40,563 nt of DNA from Bacteroidia bacterium (GCA_025454975.1 JALONK010000030.1:1-40563); one strand, 5' to 3'. Shown: positions 3,935 to 15,726, counted from the first letter of the stretch. Notes: generated by a model from the letters alone, not told the origin. Translations and numbers: made by a program.

Positions 3935-5197
3935 ATGATTGACGTTGTTTTAGGGCTCCAATGGGGCGATGAAGGTAAAGGAAAAATAGTTGATGTACTT
4001 ACACCAAAATATGATGTAGTTGCTCGTTTTCAAGGTGGTCCAAATGCCGGACATTCACTTGAATTTAATGGTCAAAAGCACGTGTTGAATACCATTCCTT
4101 CAGGAATCTTTCATCAACATACCATTAACATTATCGGTAATGGTGTGGTGATTGATCCGGTAACTTTAAAAAAGGAAATTGAAAAGGTAATGGCCTCGGG
4201 TGTTGATCCTCGGAAAAATTTATACATTTCGCAAAAGGCTCATTTAATTTTACCTACACATCGTTTGGTGGATGCCGCCAGTGAGGCGCATAAAGGTGAA
4301 CATAAAATTGGTTCAACCTTGCGCGGTATTAGTCCAACCTACCAAGATAAAATAGGAAGAAGTGGTTTGCGCGTGGGAGATATTATCACCCCAAATTTTA
4401 CGCAGAAATATGAACAAGCTGTTGCAAACCACAAACAATTGCTCGATAGGTTTAACTTTACTTATAACCTTGCAGAACACGAACCCGCATTTTTTGAAGC
4501 TGTTGAATTTTTAAAACAATTTCAAATCATTAGTTCCGAATATTTTTTAAACGAATTGCTTCAACAAGGTAAAAAAGTATTAGCCGAAGGAGCTCAGGGT
4601 ACTTTATTAGATATTGATTTTGGAACATATCCATTTGTAACTTCTTCAAATACCATTACCGGCGGCGTATGCAGCGGATTAGGTGTGGCACCGCAAAAAA
4701 TAAACAAGGTATATGGAATTTTTAAAGCGTATTGCACACGTGTGGGCAGTGGTCCTTTTCCTACTGAATTACATAATGAAGTTGGTGAACAATTGCGTAA
4801 ACAAGGTTTCGAGTTTGGAGCCACCACCGGTCGTCCGCGCCGCACAGGCTGGCTCGATTTACCAACCCTTAAATACTCGGTAATGTTAAATGGTGTTACC
4901 GATTTAATTTGTACTAAAAGTGATGTGCTGAGTGGTTTTGAAACTGTTCCGGTTTGTGATGCTTACGATATTGAAGGAGAGCGAATTTCTGATATTCCGT
5001 TTAACTTTAACGATGCCCCAATTAAACCTTTGTTTAAAACATTTAAAGGCTGGCACGAAGATCTTACACAAATTAAAACCTACCAACAATTACCGGAAAG
5101 TTTTAAAGCTTACATGACCTATATTGAAGAGCAAGTAGGTTTACCACTTAGCGTTATTTCGGTTGGTCCGGATCGCGAACAAACCATTATTAAATAA
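3935..5197 (+). CDS. purA: Adenylosuccinate synthase
   Basis: Catalyses the GTP-dependent joining of IMP and aspartate to adenylosuccinate, the first committed step from IMP to AMP. The 420 residues match the family length. Visible signatures are the P-loop-like LQWGDEGKGKIVD (8-20) carrying the catalytic Asp, GPNAGHS with the catalytic His, the EGAQGTLLDIDFGTYPFVTS segment and TTGRPRRTGWLDL, the IMP and GTP binding loop. It is a cytoplasmic housekeeping enzyme 35 bases behind fur and probably in its operon. Confidence 0.97.
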   Translation: MIDVVLGLQWGDEGKGKIVDVLTPKYDVVARFQGGPNAGHSLEFNGQKHVLNTIPSGIFHQHTINIIGNGVVIDPVTLKKEIEKVMASGVDPRKNLYISQKAHLILPTHRLVDAASEAHKGEHKIGSTLRGISPTYQDKIGRSGLRVGDIITPNFTQKYEQAVANHKQLLDRFNFTYNLAEHEPAFFEAVEFLKQFQIISSEYFLNELLQQGKKVLAEGAQGTLLDIDFGTYPFVTSSNTITGGVCSGLGVAPQKINKVYGIFKAYCTRVGSGPFPTELHNEVGEQLRKQGFEFGATTGRPRRTGWLDLPTLKYSVMLNGVTDLICTKSDVLSGFETVPVCDAYDIEGERISDIPFNFNDAPIKPLFKTFKGWHEDLTQIKTYQQLPESFKAYMTYIEEQVGLPLSVISVGPDREQTIIK

Positions 5198-5326
5198 TAT
5201 AATAGAGGCTGTAGATTAGCATCTGCAAGTATGTACGTTTGGATGTAAACAACTGTTATCTTGCTGCTACTTGTTATATTTTAAGTGGTTTTATTGCTGC
5301 AACAAGGTTGCAATATTAATAAACTT

Positions 5327-5878
5327 ATGAGCAAACTTTTAGTGCAATTATGTTTGTTGTTTCCTTTAATAGCTTCGGCACAGTTACAATTTGATTCGGT
5401 TATACAACAATATCATTACCGTTGCAATTGTAATGAATATGTTATTGTGCAAGGAATCCCAACACCAATGCCACATGCATCAAAGAAACAGCCATACAAT
5501 TTATTTAAACTTCGGGTTGATACGGTTTATTATGCTGTAGATATTAAAGCCATGGAAGATTCAGTTATGTATCTGCTTTCAACCTCACCACAAAGCACCT
5601 TACAGATAACCACTTCAAATTTATTTATACTTAAAAAGTGTTTTTATTGCGAATCACCCGCATCCTTTCCTTGTAGGCCATTATTGTATTATGAAGTATA
5701 TGAATCTGCCAATAACCATAACGATACTATACAATTGCATCAACGCGATACAACCTTACCACCATGTAAGTATTGTGAAACCATGCGTTCACCGGCATCA
5801 AGTAGAAACAAAGTTGATATAAACAAGTTGAATCAAATAGAAAAGTTTATACAAGCACAAACCAAAGCCAAAAAATAA
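5327..5878 (+). CDS. Exported cysteine-rich hypothetical protein
   Basis: The frame is open from 5285 (GTG), but ATG 5327 is preferred because it begins a clean signal peptide (MSKLLVQLCLLFPLIASAQ, cleavage after ~19). The mature part of about 164 residues has seven cysteines at 33, 35, 105, 108, 116, 147 and 150. Two short elements resemble each other: CFYCESPAS and CKYCETMRSPAS. The end is polar and Lys-rich. I recognise no family. CxxC pairs in an exported protein suggest metal binding or disulfides. It stands alone between purA and a terminator at 5884, next to the AT-rich cassette but separated from it by that terminator. Confidence 0.7.
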   Translation: MSKLLVQLCLLFPLIASAQLQFDSVIQQYHYRCNCNEYVIVQGIPTPMPHASKKQPYNLFKLRVDTVYYAVDIKAMEDSVMYLLSTSPQSTLQITTSNLFILKKCFYCESPASFPCRPLLYYEVYESANNHNDTIQLHQRDTTLPPCKYCETMRSPASSRNKVDINKLNQIEKFIQAQTKAKK

Positions 5879-5883
5879 ATGGG

Positions 5884-5903
5884 AGAGTGAAAACACTCTT
5901 TTT
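5884..5903 (+). terminator. Rho-independent terminator after the cysteine-rich protein
   Basis: Stem AGAGTG/CACTCT with loop AAAA followed by TTTT, 6 bases after the stop at 5878. A short but well-placed hairpin; it separates this gene from the cassette that follows. Confidence 0.65.
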
Positions 5904-6087
5904 GCTAGTGAAAATATAGTCTTTTTATTATTGATTACAGCAGTAGAGTTGTCGTAATAAATTATGCTTTCCCCAACATTTGTTATAAGTGTTTTATCCT
6001 CAAGTTTATTTCATAAAATCATTAGGAGTAGCAGTAACTACAGCAACAAATAGGGTTAATTAAGCGTGAATACTAGGGTTGATAAAT

Positions 6088-7101
6088 ATGAATAAACGGT
6101 TAAATTTGAATGGTAGCACAATAAATGTTTTGGCCATTTTGGATGAAATCCTTTCTAAATACCTTAAACTGTTTAAAAAGTTAAGAATAGATCGTTCACA
6201 CGGAAACGCTCCGCACAAGCCGATTTTATTACTTACAGTATTAGAGTTATATCGTAAAGGATTAATATTAGATGAAAAGATTTACATCACACCTGAGTTA
6301 ATAACAGTATTTAGAGCCAATTTGAATGTATTAGTAGTAACCAATCATGAGTGTAGAATATCTTATCCATTCTATCATTTAAATAGCGAAAAATTTTGGC
6401 ATTTAGTTCCCAATGGGGTGCTTCAAGATATCAATCAAATACATACAAGTGTTAAAAGTTTATTCAGGTTGAATGCATATATAGCTTATGCTGCAGTTGA
6501 TGCTGATTTCGTGCTATTAGCTAAGGATAAGGATATGAACCAACTATTGACCAATTTTTTATTGGCTGAATATTTTCCGATAACACGAAACCATTATGCA
6601 TTAGTAAGCATTAACGCCAACATGCAATTTGGAGAACTTGAGCAGAAAGTGTTGCATGATTCACCTGAAAAATACAAGCGAGAGATTAAAGCGTTATTAG
6701 CAGAAAAGAATGAAGAGGAGGTATTTATTAGAGGCAGTTTATTTAAACGAGAGATACCCAAAATTTATAATAATACTTGTTGTATTTCAAGGATGAAGGT
6801 AGAAACCGTTACTAATATTTCAATGATAGATGCTTGTCATATTGTACCATTTAGCATTAGTTATGATGATACTGTAACCAATGGTATTGCCTTGTGTCCA
6901 AATCTTCATCGGGCATTCGACAGGGGGTTGATAGCCATAGATGATAACTTCAAGGTAATGGTTTCGAAAGTATTTGCAGAAGAGCAATCGAATTATAGTT
7001 TAAAGGTATTTGAAGGCAAACGAATTCAATTACCCAAGATAAAGAGTTATTATCCAATGAAAGAAAATTTAGAATGGCATAGGGGGAATGTATTTAAATG
7101 A
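6088..7101 (+). CDS. HNH endonuclease, COG3440-like restriction-type
   Basis: 337 residues from ATG 6088; a TTG at 6079 in the same frame is the alternative. The N-terminal half contains GNAPHKPILLLTVLELY (about residues 39-55), typical of predicted HNH restriction endonucleases. The C-terminal HNH domain (about 228-285) has CC, DACHIVPF and NGIALCPNLHRAFDRGLI; H251, N272 and H274 are the likely metal and catalytic residues, all intact. It should cut DNA; target and modification sensitivity are unknown, and no methyltransferase lies nearby. Its stop overlaps the start of the giant helicase as ATGA (7098-7101), which suggests translational coupling and a joint function. Confidence 0.85.
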   Translation: MNKRLNLNGSTINVLAILDEILSKYLKLFKKLRIDRSHGNAPHKPILLLTVLELYRKGLILDEKIYITPELITVFRANLNVLVVTNHECRISYPFYHLNSEKFWHLVPNGVLQDINQIHTSVKSLFRLNAYIAYAAVDADFVLLAKDKDMNQLLTNFLLAEYFPITRNHYALVSINANMQFGELEQKVLHDSPEKYKREIKALLAEKNEEEVFIRGSLFKREIPKIYNNTCCISRMKVETVTNISMIDACHIVPFSISYDDTVTNGIALCPNLHRAFDRGLIAIDDNFKVMVSKVFAEEQSNYSLKVFEGKRIQLPKIKSYYPMKENLEWHRGNVFK

Positions 7102-10100
7102 AATCTATAGCATTTATTGATACTGAAATTGAACCAAAAACCGGAAAGATTCTTGATATTGGTTGCATAAAGAATGACGGAAGCACTTATCATAAGTCAA
7201 ATGTTTCCGAATTATTTAACTTTATTCATGAGGTTCAATTTATATGTGGTCATAATATCATTCATCACGATTTAAAATATTTAACTAAAGCAATATCATT
7301 TAATCATGAACAGATAAAGCATGTAGTAGACACCTTATATTTATCTCCTTTACTTTTCCCAACTCGACCTTATCATGCATTATTGAAAGATGATAAGTTG
7401 CAATCGGAGGATATGAATAATCCTTTAAATGATGCTAAGAAGGCAAGGGATCTTTTTTTAGATGAAGTTACTGCATTTAATCAAACAGAAGAAGATCTAA
7501 AAGAAATCTTTTATTTGTTATTGAAGGACAAGGTTGAATTTAAATCATTTTTCCATTACATTGGATATAGTATCAACAATCATCCAATTGAACAATTAAT
7601 AAGGCATAAATTCAGTTCATCAATATGTGAAAATGCGAATCTTCAACAGATGATTACAGAGCATTCGATTGAACTGGCCTATTGTTTAGCATTAATTAAT
7701 TGTAACAATCGGTATTCAATTACGCCACCTTGGGTTTTACGCAACTTTCCAAAAGTTGATAAACTTATGTTTTTGTTACGCAGTAAACCGTGTTTAACAG
7801 GATGTAAATATTGTAACAAAGCTTTTGACGTTCATCTTGGGTTAAAAAAATATTTTGGGTATGATAGTTACAGAACTTATGAAGGCGAACCATTGCAGGA
7901 AAAGGCCGTTAAATCGGCTGTTGAGAATAAGTCATTATTAGCAGTATTTCCAACAGGTGGCGGAAAATCAATAACGTTTCAAGTTCCTGCATTAATGGCC
8001 GGTGAACATTCAAAAGGATTAACTGTTGTGATTTCTCCATTACAGTCATTGATGAAAGATCAAGTTGATAATCTTGAGAAAATCCAAATTACGGAGGCTG
8101 TAACTATCAATGGATTGCTTGATCCAATTGAAAGAGCAAAATCTATAGAGCGAATTATGGATGGAAGGGCATCTTTACTTTATATTTCTCCTGAGTCACT
8201 TCGTTCTAAAACAATAGAAAAATTGTTATTGACACGAAAGATTGTTCGATTTGTGATAGATGAAGCGCATTGTTTTTCTTCTTGGGGTCAAGATTTTAGG
8301 GTTGATTATTTGTATATAGGTGATTTTATAAAGCAAATTCAGGAGAAAAAGAATCTTGATGAAAGTATTCCGATTTCATGTTTTACGGCAACAGCAAAAC
8401 AAAAGGTAATTGAAGATATTTGTGCTTACTTTAATGATAAGTTAGGTATTCAACTGGAAGTTTTTCCATCAAAAGCTTCTCGTACAAACTTGAAATATGA
8501 AGTATTTGCTAAACAGGATGATGAAGAAAAGTATAATGCAGTTCGTGATTTAATCAATGAGAAAAATTGTCCAACCATCATTTATGTGTCAAGAACCAAA
8601 CGTGCTCAAATCATTGCAGAACGACTAAACGAAGATGGATTTAACGCTAGGGCATTTCATGGTAAAATGGATAGTCGTGAAAAAACAAACAATCAAGATG
8701 CATTTATTTCCGGCGAGGTACAGATTATGGTTGCAACATCTGCTTTTGGAATGGGGGTTGATAAAAAAGATGTTGGGATGGTTATACATTATGAGATATC
8801 AGATTCATTGGAGAATTATGTTCAGGAAGCAGGCAGGGCCGGACGTGATGAAAACATCAATGCGGATTGTTATGTACTTTTTAATGAGGAAGACTTAGGT
8901 AAGCATTTTATTTTATTGAATCAAACTAAAATAAATATTCACGAGATAAAGCAAATCTGGAATGCAATAAAATTTTTAACTAAAACAAAATCAAGCATTC
9001 AAAAATCAGCTTTAGAAATTGCGCGAACAGCAGGTTGGGATGATAATGTAAATGAAATTGAAACAAGAGTAACAACGGCCATTGCTGCATTAGAAGAAGC
9101 AGGTTACATTATACGTAAACATAATGTACCTAGAGTTTTTGCCAATAGTATTTTAACCAAATCAGCACAAGATGCAATTATTAAAATAGAAAATTCCGGG
9201 AAGTTTAACAAAGAACAAAAGATATCAGCCACAAGAATAATAAAAAGTTTGTTTTCAAGTAAAAGTAGTAAATCGTCTGATACTGATGAAGCTGAATCAA
9301 GGGTTGATTATCTTGCAGATCATTTAGGAATAAATATTAATCAAGTTATTTCCATCATTAATTTATTAAGGGATGAAAAAATTCTTGCTGATGCCAAAGA
9401 CTTAAGGGCCTTTATCAAAAGGGGCGAGCATAAAAATCGTTCACTTGCCATTGTTCAAAATTTCGCAAGTATAGAAAAATATTTAGGTCAGTTATTTGAT
9501 GAACAGGAAAGGATATTTCACATCAAAGAATTAAATGAGGATGCAGAAACAAAAGGATACAAAGATGTAACTCCAAACAAAATAAAAACAATTATTAATT
9601 ATTGGGCAATCAAAAACTGGATAAAAAGATATAACAAAGATTATTCAAAGAATTATATAGCGGGGATTGCATGTCAGAGTCAGGATATCTTAAACGAGCG
9701 ACTTGATAAACGACATCAAATAGCTAATTTTATTGTAAGTTATTTGTATAGCCAAAGTAATAAATCATTAAATGAAGTTGATACTTCCCAAGAAGAAATT
9801 TTAACCGAGTTTTCAATTCTTGAATTACAAGCCCAATTCGAAAAACAGAATCAGGGTTTATTTAATTATAAACCAACTACGGAAGAAATTGAGGATTCGT
9901 TATTTTTTCTTTCTCGAATTAATGCCATTAAAATTGAAGGTGGTTTTATGGTTGTTTATAATAAACTTACCATTGAAAGGATTGAACAAAACAATAGAGT
10001 TCAATATAAAGAACAAGATTATCAAAAACTGAATCAGTTTTATAATCATAAAGTCCAACAAATTCATATCGTTGGGGAGTATGCCAAAAAGATGATAGAT

Positions 10101-11915
10101 GATTCGACGCGAGCCTTAACCTTTGTTGATGATTATTTTAGATTAAACTTTCCATCTTTTCTCAATAAGTACTTCAAAGGCGCAAGAGCTTTAGAAATTA
10201 ACCGTAACATCACTCCTAAAAAGTATAAACAACTGTTCGATTCCTTATCAGACGTGCAAAGGAAGATCATTGACGATAAAACATCACCATACATTGTAGT
10301 GGCTGCGGGTCCGGGTAGCGGAAAAACTAAGGTTTTGGTTCATAAATTGGCCTCTTTACTTTTAATGGAAGACGTGAAGCATGATCAATTACTGATGCTA
10401 ACTTTCTCAAGGGCTGCTGCTACTGAATTTAAAAAACGATTGATTGAACTCATTGGAAATGCAGCACATTATATTGATATCAAAACTTTTCATTCATATT
10501 GTTTTGACTTATTAGGAAAAATTGGGACAATTCATGATTCGGAATCAATTATAAAAGTAACAGTTGATAAAATTAAAAATAATGAAGTTGAAGCTAATAG
10601 AATTACAAAGACCGTTTTAGTTATTGATGAAGCTCAGGATATGAATGAAGCCGAGTTTGAATTGGTTAAGACATTGATGGATAGGAATGAGGAAATGAGG
10701 GTAATTTTAGTGGGTGATGATGATCAAAACATCTATGAATTTAGGGGATCAAATTCAAAATACCTGATAAGCTTTATAAAAGATAAAAACGCTACCAAGT
10801 ACGAGCTTGTTAAAAATTATAGAAGCAAAGCTAATTTAGTCTACTTCTCAAATCAGCTTGCTGAAACAATTAAACACAGGCTCAAAGAAGTTCCTATTCT
10901 ACCACATCAACCTGATTTGGGTAACTTAAAAATTGTTCATCACAAAGGGAATGAACTCATCTTACCTTTAATAGAAGACATACTAACTTCCGGGCTTTCA
11001 GGAACAACTTGTATATTAACACATAATAATGATGATGCATTACTGATTGTTGGGCTTTTAATAGAAAATGGGCTTCAAGCGAAACTAATTCAAACTAATA
11101 AAGAATTTAGTTTATATAATCTCGATGAGGTTCGTTTCTTTCTTAATCAGTTAAATTTAACGGAAGATACATTTGTGATTAGTGATGATGTTTGGGGCAA
11201 TGCCAAACGAAGTTTAATAAATGAATATCTGCGTAGTCCTAAATTAGAGATATGCAATAATTTAATAAAAGAGTTTGAACGGATTGCTTCAAAAACCAAG
11301 TACAAAACTGATTTCGAAATTTTTATAAGAGAATCAAAATTAGAGGATTTCATAAATGTAAATAGTGAAATTATTTTGGTTTCTACGATTCATAAATCAA
11401 AGGGCAGAGAATTTGATAATGTGTTCCTTCATCTACAAAATTTTGATATATCTAATGAAGAAAGGAAACGCGGACTTTATGTAGCCATGACAAGGGCTAA
11501 ACGTAACTTAACTATTCACCTAGACGGAAGTTATTTAGATAAGTTTGTGGTACAGGGTTTGGAAAGGACTGAATGTGATAAAGTTTATGCTAAACCATCA
11601 AACTTAACGATTCAATTATCACATAAAGATTTATATTTAAGCTATTTTGAATTTATACAAAAACGAATCAGTACTTTAAAGAGTGGTGATGAGTTGCATT
11701 TCTCGGAAGAAGGTTGTAAGAATGATAAAAATGAATTGGTGTTAAAGTTCTCACGTAACTTTATTAAGGATTTGATCGGATATAAACAAAGAGGATATGA
11801 GTTCAAAAGTGCGAAGGTAAACTTTATTGTTTATTGGAAGGGAGAAGACAAAGAAAATGAGGTTAAGATAATTTTACCTGAGCTTAATTTTAAGAAAAGT
11901 ATTGATAAGAAGTAG
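7098..11915 (+). CDS. Exonuclease-RecQ-UvrD fusion protein (1605 residues)
   Basis: One chain, several machines. Residues ~1-125 look like a DEDD 3'-5' exonuclease: FIDTE (D8, E10), GHNIIHHD (D58) and NNPLNDA (D112), but Asn stands where DEDDh enzymes have His. At 232-239 is CLTGCKYC, a possible metal site. Residues ~265-600 form a RecQ SF2 helicase: TGGGKS 286-291, DEAH 388-391, QEAGRAGRDE 576-585. A winged-helix-like stretch (~630-690) and a long linker follow. Residues ~1045-1480 are a UvrD SF1 helicase: GPGSGKT 1071-1077, DEAQD 1177-1181, GDDDQNIYEFRG 1206-1217, STIHKSKGREFD 1429-1440, YVAMTRAK 1461-1468. All ATPase motifs look intact, so two motors are expected. RecQ zinc cysteines are not evident after motif VI. 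Likely role: DNA unwinding and degradation in defence or repair (inference). Confidence 0.9.
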   Translation: MKSIAFIDTEIEPKTGKILDIGCIKNDGSTYHKSNVSELFNFIHEVQFICGHNIIHHDLKYLTKAISFNHEQIKHVVDTLYLSPLLFPTRPYHALLKDDKLQSEDMNNPLNDAKKARDLFLDEVTAFNQTEEDLKEIFYLLLKDKVEFKSFFHYIGYSINNHPIEQLIRHKFSSSICENANLQQMITEHSIELAYCLALINCNNRYSITPPWVLRNFPKVDKLMFLLRSKPCLTGCKYCNKAFDVHLGLKKYFGYDSYRTYEGEPLQEKAVKSAVENKSLLAVFPTGGGKSITFQVPALMAGEHSKGLTVVISPLQSLMKDQVDNLEKIQITEAVTINGLLDPIERAKSIERIMDGRASLLYISPESLRSKTIEKLLLTRKIVRFVIDEAHCFSSWGQDFRVDYLYIGDFIKQIQEKKNLDESIPISCFTATAKQKVIEDICAYFNDKLGIQLEVFPSKASRTNLKYEVFAKQDDEEKYNAVRDLINEKNCPTIIYVSRTKRAQIIAERLNEDGFNARAFHGKMDSREKTNNQDAFISGEVQIMVATSAFGMGVDKKDVGMVIHYEISDSLENYVQEAGRAGRDENINADCYVLFNEEDLGKHFILLNQTKINIHEIKQIWNAIKFLTKTKSSIQKSALEIARTAGWDDNVNEIETRVTTAIAALEEAGYIIRKHNVPRVFANSILTKSAQDAIIKIENSGKFNKEQKISATRIIKSLFSSKSSKSSDTDEAESRVDYLADHLGININQVISIINLLRDEKILADAKDLRAFIKRGEHKNRSLAIVQNFASIEKYLGQLFDEQERIFHIKELNEDAETKGYKDVTPNKIKTIINYWAIKNWIKRYNKDYSKNYIAGIACQSQDILNERLDKRHQIANFIVSYLYSQSNKSLNEVDTSQEEILTEFSILELQAQFEKQNQGLFNYKPTTEEIEDSLFFLSRINAIKIEGGFMVVYNKLTIERIEQNNRVQYKEQDYQKLNQFYNHKVQQIHIVGEYAKKMIDDSTRALTFVDDYFRLNFPSFLNKYFKGARALEINRNITPKKYKQLFDSLSDVQRKIIDDKTSPYIVVAAGPGSGKTKVLVHKLASLLLMEDVKHDQLLMLTFSRAAATEFKKRLIELIGNAAHYIDIKTFHSYCFDLLGKIGTIHDSESIIKVTVDKIKNNEVEANRITKTVLVIDEAQDMNEAEFELVKTLMDRNEEMRVILVGDDDQNIYEFRGSNSKYLISFIKDKNATKYELVKNYRSKANLVYFSNQLAETIKHRLKEVPILPHQPDLGNLKIVHHKGNELILPLIEDILTSGLSGTTCILTHNNDDALLIVGLLIENGLQAKLIQTNKEFSLYNLDEVRFFLNQLNLTEDTFVISDDVWGNAKRSLINEYLRSPKLEICNNLIKEFERIASKTKYKTDFEIFIRESKLEDFINVNSEIILVSTIHKSKGREFDNVFLHLQNFDISNEERKRGLYVAMTRAKRNLTIHLDGSYLDKFVVQGLERTECDKVYAKPSNLTIQLSHKDLYLSYFEFIQKRISTLKSGDELHFSEEGCKNDKNELVLKFSRNFIKDLIGYKQRGYEFKSAKVNFIVYWKGEDKENEVKIILPELNFKKSIDKK

Positions 11916-12077
11916 GTTATGCTGATTGAATATTTTTACTTTAATAAAGCTGATAACGATTACGGTATCATTCCAAACCACTCGTACGACTAATCCTCAT
12001 GAAACCGTCCCAATTTTTATTAGATAATTGAGTTAATTTAATCAGTTTGAAAAAGTAATAACCAATATAAATAGCAA

Positions 12078-14711
12078 ATGTTACTATTCTTAATTATTGT
12101 TTTTATTATTGTTATCGTTGTTGTTAATAGGTTAATTTTTTTGGCGAAAAATAAATACCAGGACCCAAATTATTTAGTACATCTTCAACATATCAATGAG
12201 TTTTTCCTACTTATAGAAGGATTCGATGATTATATAACTTGGGTATATAAAAATAAAATAAAGGAGCAATTTAAGGTCTCTGCGAAATTCTTTAAGTATA
12301 AAACATCTTATTATGCTAAAGAAGAGCGTGTAAGTAAATTTAATGATCTATATGCTAATTTAGATGACTATGTGATTAATCATAATAAAAATTATGTTAG
12401 GACACAGGTTCAAAAGTTACATGATTATTTTAATAATATTGAAGGGAAACAATTAGATGAACAACAACGTACAGCAGTAGTTACTGATGAGTATTCTAAT
12501 TTAATAATTGCAGGTGCAGGTTCAGGAAAAACTTTGACCATTTTAGCAAAAATAAAATATCTCATCGAAGTGAAAAAAATTGAACCCGAGGAGATATTAT
12601 TATTATCATTCACCGAAAAAACTGTAAGTGATTTAAATGATCGTATTAATAAGTTATCACTAAATGTTCAAGCTATGACCTTTCATAAATTAGGGTATAG
12701 CATAATAAAAAAATATCAAGATAATATTCCAACTGTAACAAATGAGAATACATTAATTAATACCATTAAAAACTATCTGACTGAAGAAATTTTTAAAGAC
12801 GAAGAAGCCCTGCAAGCATTCATTCAATTTGTTGCATGCTATTTGAATATACCTGAAGAACATGACAATTTTGATTCGTTAGGTGCAAAAATTGATGTAG
12901 AAAAGGGTATAGATTATCGAACTTTAAGATCAAAAACCTCATTAGATGCGTTACAAGGTGAAAAGGTTAAAAGCGTAGAAGAGTTAACAATCGCTAATTT
13001 CTTGTTTTTAAATGGTATTGAGTACGAGTATGAGAAACCTTACCCAATAAAAGGTATAGTATATCGCCCCGACTTTTATTTAAAAGATTATGATATTTGG
13101 TTGGAGCATTTTGGTGTGGATGAGAACAACAGGGCTAAATGGTTAACACCCCACAATGAAAAAAAATATATAGACGATATTGAAGTTAAAAGAAGAACTC
13201 ATGTTGAGAATAATACTAAGCTTTTAGAAACGTATTCATATTATAACAGAGATCATGTACTTTTAGCAAAACTGAAAGAAATGTTAGAAAAAGAGGGTGT
13301 TGTTTTCAAACCTCGTAACTCTGAAGAAATTTACAAACGAATCACCAATAATCAAGACCTTAACTTTGGAAGTGAGTTGATTAAATTGATTGAAAGCTTT
13401 ATTAATCTTAGTAAGTCAAGAAGATATACAAAGCAATCAATAATGAAAGATTTTTCAAATAATTTTAGATTTAAACGTTTGTTTTTAAGTGAACGTAAAG
13501 ACTTGTTCTTTCAATTTACACTGCCCATATTAGAAAGATATAATCTTATATTAGAAAGCAAGAATCAGATAGATTTTAATGATATGATAAATCATGCTAC
13601 TGATTTAATTGCGCATCATGAAACTAACTACGGATATAAATATATTTTAATTGATGAATACCAAGATATATCCGTTGCTAGATTTAATTTAATTAAAAAG
13701 ATACGCGAAATATGCGGGGCGAGATTAGTTTGTGTTGGAGATGATTGGCAATCTATTTATCGTTTTGCAGGTAGCGATATTAATTTGTTTAGTCATTTTG
13801 AAAAACATGTAGGTAAATCAGAAACTCTTTTAATAGAACAAACCTATCGTAATTCGCAAAGCATAATAAATATTTCAGCAAGATTTATTCAAAAAAATAA
13901 AAATCAAATTCCTAAAAATCCGATTTCAAAGAAGACTGATATTCTTGATCCATTAAAAATTTTGTACTATACAGACAATTCGTTGGAACAAGATTTTATT
14001 AACGAGATACAATTATTACAATCTAAATACGGCAATGCACCAATTTTAGTTTTAGGACGACATAGTTTTGACATTAATGACTTGCTTAATAATAGTAAAA
14101 AAATAAAATACCATGCGGTTTCTGATAAATTAACAGTTGAAGGTTTTGAGGAAATTGAAATTAAATATTTAACGGTACACCGTTCTAAAGGTTTAGAAGC
14201 AGCAAACGTTATTATATTAAACCTAAAAAATCATTTGTTGGGATTTCCTAACAAAATAACTGATGATCCTATTTTATCATTATTGTTAAGTGATGATGAA
14301 AAATTCATGTTTGCAGAGGAGCGCAGGTTATTTTACGTAGCACTTACAAGAACTCAGAATGAAATCATTTTATTTTCACCTGAGGATAAATCATTATTTG
14401 TTGATGAATTATTAATGGATAATCATTATTTGTTAACAAGAAGTCAAGGTTCATTAAATACAACATCTTGTCCGTACTGTAAGACAGGTAAGTTAAAAAT
14501 CAGACTAAATCCTAATAATGGAAATCAATTTTTAGGATGTTCACATTACCCTAGTTGTAATCAAACCTTTAACTCTATTGAAATTTTAGCAAATACAATA
14601 CTTTGTCCTTCTTGTTTAAGTGGTTTTATGGTAAAGCGTTCAAGTAGATTTGGGGATTTTTTAGGATGTACAAATTATCCGAGGTGTAATGAAGTGATAA
14701 ACTTAAAATAA
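12078..14711 (+). CDS. Membrane-anchored helicase-IV-like UvrD helicase with inserted nuclease domain and zinc ribbons
   Basis: An 877-residue SF1 helicase. Residues 3-22 are a strongly hydrophobic membrane segment. Helicase motifs: Q motif near 126, AGAGSGKT 145-152, DEYQD 526-530, GDDWQSIYRFAG 554-565, TVHRSKG 699-705 and FYVALTRTQ 752-760. Between motifs Ia and II, residues ~297-375 resemble a PD-(D/E)XK nuclease: E301/E302 in a helix, PDF (D332) and LEHFG (E343). Two topoisomerase-type C4 zinc ribbons close the protein (C798, C801, C821, C827; C843, C846, C864, C870). It lies 162 bases after the fusion helicase on the same strand and is the most AT-rich gene seen here (one sampled 60-base line, 13441-13500, has 12 G/C). 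Role inferred: DNA end processing at the membrane. Confidence 0.88.
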   Translation: MLLFLIIVFIIVIVVVNRLIFLAKNKYQDPNYLVHLQHINEFFLLIEGFDDYITWVYKNKIKEQFKVSAKFFKYKTSYYAKEERVSKFNDLYANLDDYVINHNKNYVRTQVQKLHDYFNNIEGKQLDEQQRTAVVTDEYSNLIIAGAGSGKTLTILAKIKYLIEVKKIEPEEILLLSFTEKTVSDLNDRINKLSLNVQAMTFHKLGYSIIKKYQDNIPTVTNENTLINTIKNYLTEEIFKDEEALQAFIQFVACYLNIPEEHDNFDSLGAKIDVEKGIDYRTLRSKTSLDALQGEKVKSVEELTIANFLFLNGIEYEYEKPYPIKGIVYRPDFYLKDYDIWLEHFGVDENNRAKWLTPHNEKKYIDDIEVKRRTHVENNTKLLETYSYYNRDHVLLAKLKEMLEKEGVVFKPRNSEEIYKRITNNQDLNFGSELIKLIESFINLSKSRRYTKQSIMKDFSNNFRFKRLFLSERKDLFFQFTLPILERYNLILESKNQIDFNDMINHATDLIAHHETNYGYKYILIDEYQDISVARFNLIKKIREICGARLVCVGDDWQSIYRFAGSDINLFSHFEKHVGKSETLLIEQTYRNSQSIINISARFIQKNKNQIPKNPISKKTDILDPLKILYYTDNSLEQDFINEIQLLQSKYGNAPILVLGRHSFDINDLLNNSKKIKYHAVSDKLTVEGFEEIEIKYLTVHRSKGLEAANVIILNLKNHLLGFPNKITDDPILSLLLSDDEKFMFAEERRLFYVALTRTQNEIILFSPEDKSLFVDELLMDNHYLLTRSQGSLNTTSCPYCKTGKLKIRLNPNNGNQFLGCSHYPSCNQTFNSIEILANTILCPSCLSGFMVKRSSRFGDFLGCTNYPRCNEVINLK

Positions 14712-14852
14712 GTTAATTATCATGTACATGCAATTTTATTTTTTAGACGTAATGAAAAGATAAAAACGTTTGTATCAATTTTTCATAAAAAGCGGTATAG
14801 CTGAAACCGAAATATTTATTAGAGTTTAATTACAATTAATTTTTAAAAAAAT

Positions 14853-14884
14853 AAGCTGTCTCTAAATGGTGTTAGAGACAGCTT
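14853..14884 (-). terminator. Terminator of the LOG-family gene (minus strand)
   Basis: A 13-bp perfect stem, AAGCTGTCTCTAA against its complement, loop of 6. On the minus strand it is followed by a run of seven T (14851-14845). There is no T tract on the plus side, so it serves the leftward gene ending at 14959. Confidence 0.85.
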
Positions 14885-14958
14885 AATGAATTATTTAACC
14901 AGCATAATTTTGGCTTGTGTGCACACCCTTTACGATAAGATAATAATTCACTTAAAGT

Positions 14959-15726
14959 TTATGCCGAATGTAAAAATTCGCCCAACCATTTTTTGGGTTT
15001 CATCACACGTTGTTTTTTCAAACCGAATTTGTCAATGGCAAACTTTTTTACATGGTTAGCAGCTTCTTCCACCGAGTCGGTGATTAGTAAATATTCTTTA
15101 ATTTCTGCTGCTGATACCGTTTTGTGAGTAACCATGTCTTCGGTAAGTTCGATTAAATTTTTCCAATATTCTTTACCAAATAACACTACAGGAAATTCTT
15201 TTATTTTTCCTGTTTGAATTAGTGTTAATGCTTCAAACATTTCATCCATAGTACCCCAACCACCCGGCATAATTACAAATGCATACGAATATTTAACCAA
15301 TAAAGTTTTACGAACGAAAAAATATTTAAACTCAACCGACGTTTGCACGAAGGGATTTTCTTTTTGTTCGTGAGGCAATACAATATTACATCCAACTGAA
15401 CGTCCACCGGCCTCAAATGCCCCACGGTTAGCGGCTTCCATAATTCCCGGACCGCCGCCTGTCATCACGGTAAATCCAAGTTTACTTAATGCAGCTCCCA
15501 TTTCCATAGCTTTAATATAATAAGGATGATCTTCTTTAAATCTGGCACTGCCAAAAACAGTTACACAGGGGCCAACGAAATGCAGCTTTTGAAATCCTTT
15601 AATAAACTCCCAGCATACTTTTAATACAAATCGAAGTTCACGCGTACGTGAACGAGGACCTTCCAAAAATCTTCTTTCCGAATGAAGAACTTTATCTTTT
15701 AATTGTTTTATATTTTTTTCAGTCAT
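14959..15726 (-). CDS. LOG-family (TIGR00730) Rossmann-fold protein
   Basis: The 255-residue protein carries the LOG/lysine-decarboxylase-like signature: VFGSARF near 60, MTGGGPGIMEAANRGAFEAGG and PGGWGTMDEMFEALTLIQTGKI. Characterised LOG proteins are cytokinin-type nucleoside 5'-monophosphate phosphoribohydrolases; the PGGxGTxxE motif holds the active-site residues. The N-terminal ~50 residues are an extra basic segment common in the longer group of these proteins. It is transcribed leftward behind the hmgA-hppD terminator (15739-15768), so it is probably an independent unit. Physiological substrate in this organism is unknown. Confidence 0.88.
   Translation of the reverse strand: MTEKNIKQLKDKVLHSERRFLEGPRSRTRELRFVLKVCWEFIKGFQKLHFVGPCVTVFGSARFKEDHPYYIKAMEMGAALSKLGFTVMTGGGPGIMEAANRGAFEAGGRSVGCNIVLPHEQKENPFVQTSVEFKYFFVRKTLLVKYSYAFVIMPGGWGTMDEMFEALTLIQTGKIKEFPVVLFGKEYWKNLIELTEDMVTHKTVSAAEIKEYLLITDSVEEAANHVKKFAIDKFGLKKQRVMKPKKWLGEFLHSA

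Follow-up and report, generated by a model that had tools for sequence, protein, structure and literature searches.

An SBD-HNH nuclease gene and an exonuclease-RecQ-UvrD fusion gene: a recurrent operon and probable defence pairing in an acquired island of a Bacteroidia genome

Between purA and a LOG-family gene, a Bacteroidia genome carries three genes rich in nuclease and helicase domains (here A, B and C), and the question is whether these constitute a single defence system, a smaller operon with an adjacent passenger, or no defence module at all. The window analysed, that is, the whole stretch of DNA, is 40,563 nucleotides long. The first-pass annotation described a three-gene, same-strand, AT-rich cassette in which A and B overlap as ATGA, and this description agrees with the ORF calls (A, 6088-7101; B, 7098-11915; C, 12078-14711, all on the plus strand) and with the GC content, which is 0.27-0.33 (27-33%) over the three genes versus 0.35-0.39 in most of the flanking kilobases.

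5188..14975, no strand: accessory insertion of ~9.79 kb in the interval between purA and the LOG-family gene
5285..5878, plus strand: Cys-rich secreted-like ORF, an unrelated passenger without a homologue in 57 relatives

The region is an acquired accessory island. Similarity to the congeners is lost at 5187, just 5' of the purA stop codon, and regained at 14976, just within the LOG gene. In three congeneric genomes (G004, G006 and G007), the island is absent, and the purA–LOG gap is a short one of ~43-45 bp that is occupied by a bidirectional terminator. Given that the insertion starts at ~5188, the Cys-rich ORF, which had originally been counted as flank along with purA and the LOG gene, is part of the island. 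Another congener, G002, contains a different insert of 1.9 kb at the same spot (L173:1158-3001), bounded on either side by a copy of the terminator hairpin AAAGTCGGGCTnGCCCGACTTT; this spot is thus a recurrent accessory site. An Rfam search of the island yielded no match, a tRNA search across the window detected none, the hits of a promoter scan did not exceed chance expectation, and no repeats marking a mobile element were found at the flanks.

6088..7101, plus strand: gene A, SBD-HNH protein of 337 aa, type IV restriction-like
6154..6591, plus strand: sulphur-binding domain (SBD) of A, aa 23-168, with phmmer, profile and Foldseek matches to 8h0l
6778..6942, plus strand: HNH nuclease domain of A (DACHIVP, N265, H274), PF13391 with E 2.5e-12

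Gene A encodes the HNH domain (HNH_2) that had been noticed from the start, preceded by a sulphur-binding domain that had been missed. A phmmer search identifies similarity to the SBD of Hga (8h0l) with an E-value of 1.6e-13, and a profile made from 27 relatives of A detects the same protein with an E-value of 1.5e-27 and also matches ScoMcrA. The predicted structure of A (pLDDT 88.8) has 8h0l, a complex with phosphorothioated (PT) DNA, as its best Foldseek match (TMt 0.86, rmsd 2.2); further structural matches include the SBDs of SprMcrA and ScoMcrA and, in the HNH half, VcaM4I and TagI. The sulphur pocket of ScoMcrA is lined by H116, R117 (or K), Y164 and P165 (PMC6224610), and the equivalent residues of A are H43, K44, Y93 and P94. 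In the family alignment, P94 is invariant and K44 nearly invariant; the tyrosine is variable, with L at the Y164 position in most of the sequences. The HNH set, H251, N265 and H274, is invariant in all 27 sequences. The SBD-then-HNH order, the HK and P residues of the pocket and the H-N-H residues are shared with the PT-dependent type IV enzymes SprMcrA, EcoWI and Hga, as well as with ScoMcrA, which has an extra SRA domain. Unlike these enzymes, A scores below the cut-off of the closest NCBIfam model, NF045808, PT-DNA restriction endonuclease (117.3 bits versus the cut-off of 180), so that its PT specificity is not assured, and it is the first cistron before a helicase-exonuclease gene. Judging from the sequence and the model, the architecture of A looks like that of a modification-dependent (type IV) restriction enzyme, and the predicted cleavage is likely to be PT-dependent. 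The SBD-HNH enzymes cleave PT-DNA and restrict PT-modified plasmids, and the rarity of their genes beside dnd genes has already been published (PMC7461809). The start codon of A is uncertain (window positions 6079-6142): there is an alternative TTG start at 6079, the alignment with most relatives begins only at residue ~18, model confidence is low at the very N-terminus, and the real start may lie further 3'.

7098..11915, plus strand: gene B, DEDD exonuclease-Cys4-RecQ-UvrD fusion of 1605 aa
7098..7577, plus strand: DEDD-type exonuclease domain of B, with D8, E10, D58 and D112 invariant in 46/46 sequences and a model pLDDT of 89
7626..7814, plus strand: putative zinc module of B (C177, C232, C236, C239), conserved in 45-46 of 46 sequences
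7842..8930, plus strand: RecQ-type SF2 helicase core of B, aa 249-611, TIGR01389 with E 3.2e-92, motifs intact
10230..11537, plus strand: UvrD-type SF1A helicase core of B, aa 1045-1480, PF00580 with E 6.2e-34

The exonuclease-RecQ-UvrD fusion originally assigned to B is borne out, with the two motors supported by Pfam (RecQ-type DEAD/Helicase_C, UvrD N and C) and the exonuclease by the predicted structure and the conserved motifs. The UvrD motifs GPGSGKT, DEAQD, GDDDQNIY and TRAK are conserved in the alignment of B, which comprises 46 members. The N-terminus matched none of the Pfam exonuclease models, and its sequence profile shows only weak similarity to PDB entries (E 0.03-0.15). The first 245 residues are nevertheless predicted to adopt an RNase H-like DEDD exonuclease fold (pLDDT 89.2), for which a structure comparison (VIA) gives DinG from Staphylococcus aureus with a Z-score of 14.2 over 226 residues and DnaQ with a Z-score of 12.5; ExoI, RNase T and Cap18 are among the other best fold matches. 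In motif III, the position of the usual catalytic histidine, five residues before the last aspartate (position 107), is occupied by N in 40 and by S in six of the 46 sequences, and invariant H93 and K97 are located upstream of it.

Comparison with characterised proteins identifies relatives of the individual parts of B, in line with the original statement that no named system is recognised: there is no full-length match, and the PADLOC matches of B (DpdF, GajB) correspond to shared RecQ and UvrD parts. The full-length RecQ model TIGR01389 scores 310 bits versus the required 640, so that only the RecQ core is present. The match to DpdF of the Dpd system (NF041063) reaches 224 bits versus a cut-off of 550 and covers the RecQ-like core only; the GajB matches reflect the common UvrD core, and no OLD nuclease, as in Gabija, was found among the proteins of the insertion. 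The RecQ core is shared with RecQ, and its combination with a DEDD exonuclease with WRN, but B adds the Cys4 module and an entire UvrD motor in one chain and is accessory rather than housekeeping. DinG of S. aureus, an exonuclease-helicase and the closest solved match to the N-terminus of B, has an XPD-like helicase, whereas B has RecQ and UvrD. With RecBCD and AddAB, B shares two motors and a nuclease and, in principle, the capacity for end degradation; it differs from these in being a single chain with RecQ and UvrD motors, in having a DEDD rather than a RecB-type nuclease and in its patchy distribution.

B is present in 26/395 Bacteroidia genomes (~7%) in a patchy manner, and in the genus of the window it is found otherwise only in G003, at a different locus. 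Relatives of B occupy 19 loci in the GTDB contig set, some of them in MAGs classified as Clostridiaceae and Lachnospiraceae, and more distant ones are encoded on plasmids of Bacteroides, Phocaeicola, Aliarcobacter, Thiothrix and Cereibacter. Scans of viral contigs with A and B detected no relatives; the phage records that match B do so mainly over the RecQ core. Analysis of ~35 B loci reveals mostly ordinary neighbour genes, B being usually solo, and no neighbour family is common to more than two of 22 loci. At one locus (L036:4576-10004), 4 nt are shared between the B homologue and an 88-aa ORF; this ORF is preceded by the gene for a 1615-aa AAA_11/AAA_12 helicase that includes an MTES_1575 nuclease domain and is possibly another defence neighbour of B. 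B looks like a candidate standalone defence enzyme; given that it most often lies alone among ordinary genes, outside defence islands, an accessory repair enzyme fits as well.

7098..7101, plus strand: ATGA overlap of the A stop and B start codons, a 4-nt junction also present in L035 and L113

The A-B pair is a recurrent operon. A is located directly upstream of B in three genomes, namely, the window, G029 (L035) and G295 (L113), with the ATGA overlap in each case. In the tree of B, these three genomes are scattered, and with only supported branches considered, their distribution forces three or more changes. The corresponding A genes all belong to a single A subclade. Hence, there was either repeated formation of the pair or repeated loss of A. 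The identical 4-nt overlap in separate B lineages suggests selection for matched dosage, without proving joint action. Chance adjacency of A and B is very unlikely, the rough estimate being overstated because it includes the window, of which two of the three pairs are independent. At the level of genomes, there is no excess of co-occurrence (3 observed versus 1.9 expected). Because such nuclease genes are also found at the head of two known antiviral operons (below), the SBD-HNH gene and the exonuclease-RecQ-UvrD gene are probably an undescribed defence pairing.

The strongest indication of the role of B comes from the contexts of A. The A family (E<=1e-12) is present in 34/395 Bacteroidia genomes. 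Among 15 close A genes, six are followed by a same-strand gene that starts within 6 bp of the stop codon or overlaps it, and the partners are B in three cases and Wadjet, a Wadjet-like operon and Hachiman in one case each. Specifically, the SBD-HNH gene shares the four nucleotides GTGA with jetA, the first gene of a complete Wadjet type I JetABCD operon (L191:3939-11463); it has an ATGA overlap with a divergent four-gene Wadjet-like operon that is barely recognised by PADLOC, with matches only to the JetC start and the JetD end (L116:7471-14765); and it lies 6 bp upstream of Hachiman HamA-HamB (L117:8838-13300). Just upstream of the SBD-HNH–Wadjet operon in L191, there is a gene for a 1048-aa protein similar to the ResIII-type helicase of L112. 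Other relatives of A adjoin ResIII-PLD-DUF3427 helicases with NUDIX, a Schlafen-type helicase or NACHT genes. The three Wadjet, Wadjet-like and Hachiman loci have the same SBD-HNH first gene and the same tight junction as the window, where, by contrast, the downstream module is the single gene B. Because A takes the first-gene position before Wadjet, Wadjet-like and Hachiman genes, it looks like an interchangeable nuclease layer placed ahead of defence modules that target DNA, and the fact that B holds the same position behind A is the main argument for B as a defence module. As for modification genes, dnd genes are present in 17/395 Bacteroidia genomes and their co-occurrence with A (1 versus 1.25 expected) is uninformative; a search of the window's own genome found no match to DndC, and the locus is not assigned to Dnd.

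12078..14711, plus strand: gene C, helicase IV-like UvrD protein with an N-terminal hydrophobic helix, an insert and two Top1 zinc ribbons
12957..13277, plus strand: insert of C, a putative PD-(D/E)xK-like nuclease, motifs kept in 5/5 homologues

Gene C is probably a separate passenger, an unlinked neighbour of A-B, given that this helicase is solo and accessory elsewhere. It is similar to helicase IV (NF008276, E 3.1e-93) and shares the helicase core with HelD of Escherichia coli, to which it adds the N-terminal hydrophobic helix, the nuclease-like insert and the zinc ribbons. Of the membrane nuclease-helicase that had been proposed, the UvrD core and the hydrophobic N-terminus stand, and the nuclease is putative: the insert, located between helicase motifs, contains conserved S-x-(E/Q)-E, Y(R/K)PDF and (L/I)EHFG and looks like a PD-(D/E)xK-like nuclease. 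C is found in 5/395 Bacteroidia genomes at E 1e-60 and in 5/198 genomes of the phylum at E 1e-90, and its relatives are also encoded on plasmids. The first-pass reading of A, B and C as one undescribed system can appeal to the common strand and AT-rich insertion, to the B–C spacing of only ~160 bp and to the co-occurrence of B and C in two genomes versus 0.33 expected, one of the two being the window itself. Against this, C adjoins neither A nor B in any of the four relatives inspected (G016, G272, G412 and G169, the last of which has B and C on separate contigs), and solo occurrence is the rule for B, so that the expected adjacency of all three orthologues fails. A single system of three genes is thus largely refuted and highly improbable. 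The three-gene cassette as a conserved unit is rejected on the context of these C relatives.

What remains of the proposed defence module is its smaller form, which is compatible with the acquired island, the recurrent A-B operon and the presence of the A family in defence operons. We consider it somewhat probable that A and B constitute a two-gene defence operon within the island, with A a type IV-like nuclease, B a single-chain end-processing machine, and C separate. A serious competitor, falling just short of probable, is that the two are stacked, mechanistically independent layers that merely share a transcript, without ever acting on one and the same DNA molecule, A restricting modified DNA and B performing a separate job; A also precedes Wadjet and Hachiman, which as far as known work without A, and most B genes lack A, but the exact 4-nt overlap in separate B lineages is suggestive of a tuned stoichiometry, short of a proof of joint action. 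Action on the same molecule and mere stacking are rated about equally. That B is an accessory helicase-exonuclease of DNA repair or recombination, with A an unrelated adjacent restriction gene, appears unlikely; a repair function of B where it stands alone is the leading alternative to defence. RecQ, UvrD and DinG-like exonucleases are classical repair parts, and solo B genes sit between core genes; yet B is very patchy even within a genus, is carried on plasmids and is recurrently paired with a restriction-type nuclease. It also seems rather doubtful that the SBD-like domain of A has given up sulphur recognition in favour of a different modification, of the backbone or of a base, or of a structure that the partner system exposes. 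The sub-threshold NCBIfam score, the prevalent leucine at the Y164 position and partners that include systems not tied to PT would accord with such a change, but the pocket proline and, nearly so, the lysine are retained, the top structural match is the PT-DNA complex, and a distant, 35%-identical SBD-HNH homologue is located within a dnd (phosphorothioation) cluster of a cyanobacterial plasmid (L196:2498-12975).

Under the two-gene defence reading, family knowledge and genomic context suggest the following anti-phage or anti-plasmid mechanism. The SBD of A would probably read phosphorothioated, or similarly modified, DNA as a foreign backbone mark, and the HNH domain would cut near the modified site. 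The RecQ and UvrD families usually move 3'-5', and the two motors of B could unwind DNA from the ends, with the putative activity of the DEDD domain degrading the 3' strand, so that the invading DNA would be destroyed. B presumably acts with or without A, being A-less in most genomes, and A would be an additional, exchangeable layer that heads one or another defence module; co-translation would match the levels of A and B. More tentatively, as a possibility that we rate below probable, SBD-HNH might be a portable module placed before unrelated DNA-translocating immune systems (Wadjet, Hachiman and B), and B might be an undescribed single-protein RecBCD-like immune nuclease.

The SBD-HNH enzymes themselves are already known. 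Neither an exonuclease-RecQ-UvrD defence protein nor an SBD-HNH gene as the head of Wadjet or Hachiman operons is described in PADLOC 2023, NCBIfam, Pfam or the open-access papers searched; within these limited sources, which do not amount to a proof of novelty, B as a defence candidate and SBD-HNH heading Wadjet and Hachiman appear to be new. A modification-dependent restriction-type gene thus recurs at the head of several different defence operons, and B provides a specific candidate for an immune protein that combines helicase and exonuclease in one chain, found in the above ~7% of the sampled Bacteroidia genomes and on plasmids. If the proposed scheme is correct, a portable SBD-HNH module and B would link the sensing of backbone modification to processive destruction of invading DNA and, if A reads phosphorothioate, these operons would be anti-PT barriers among Bacteroidota, where dnd genes do occur.
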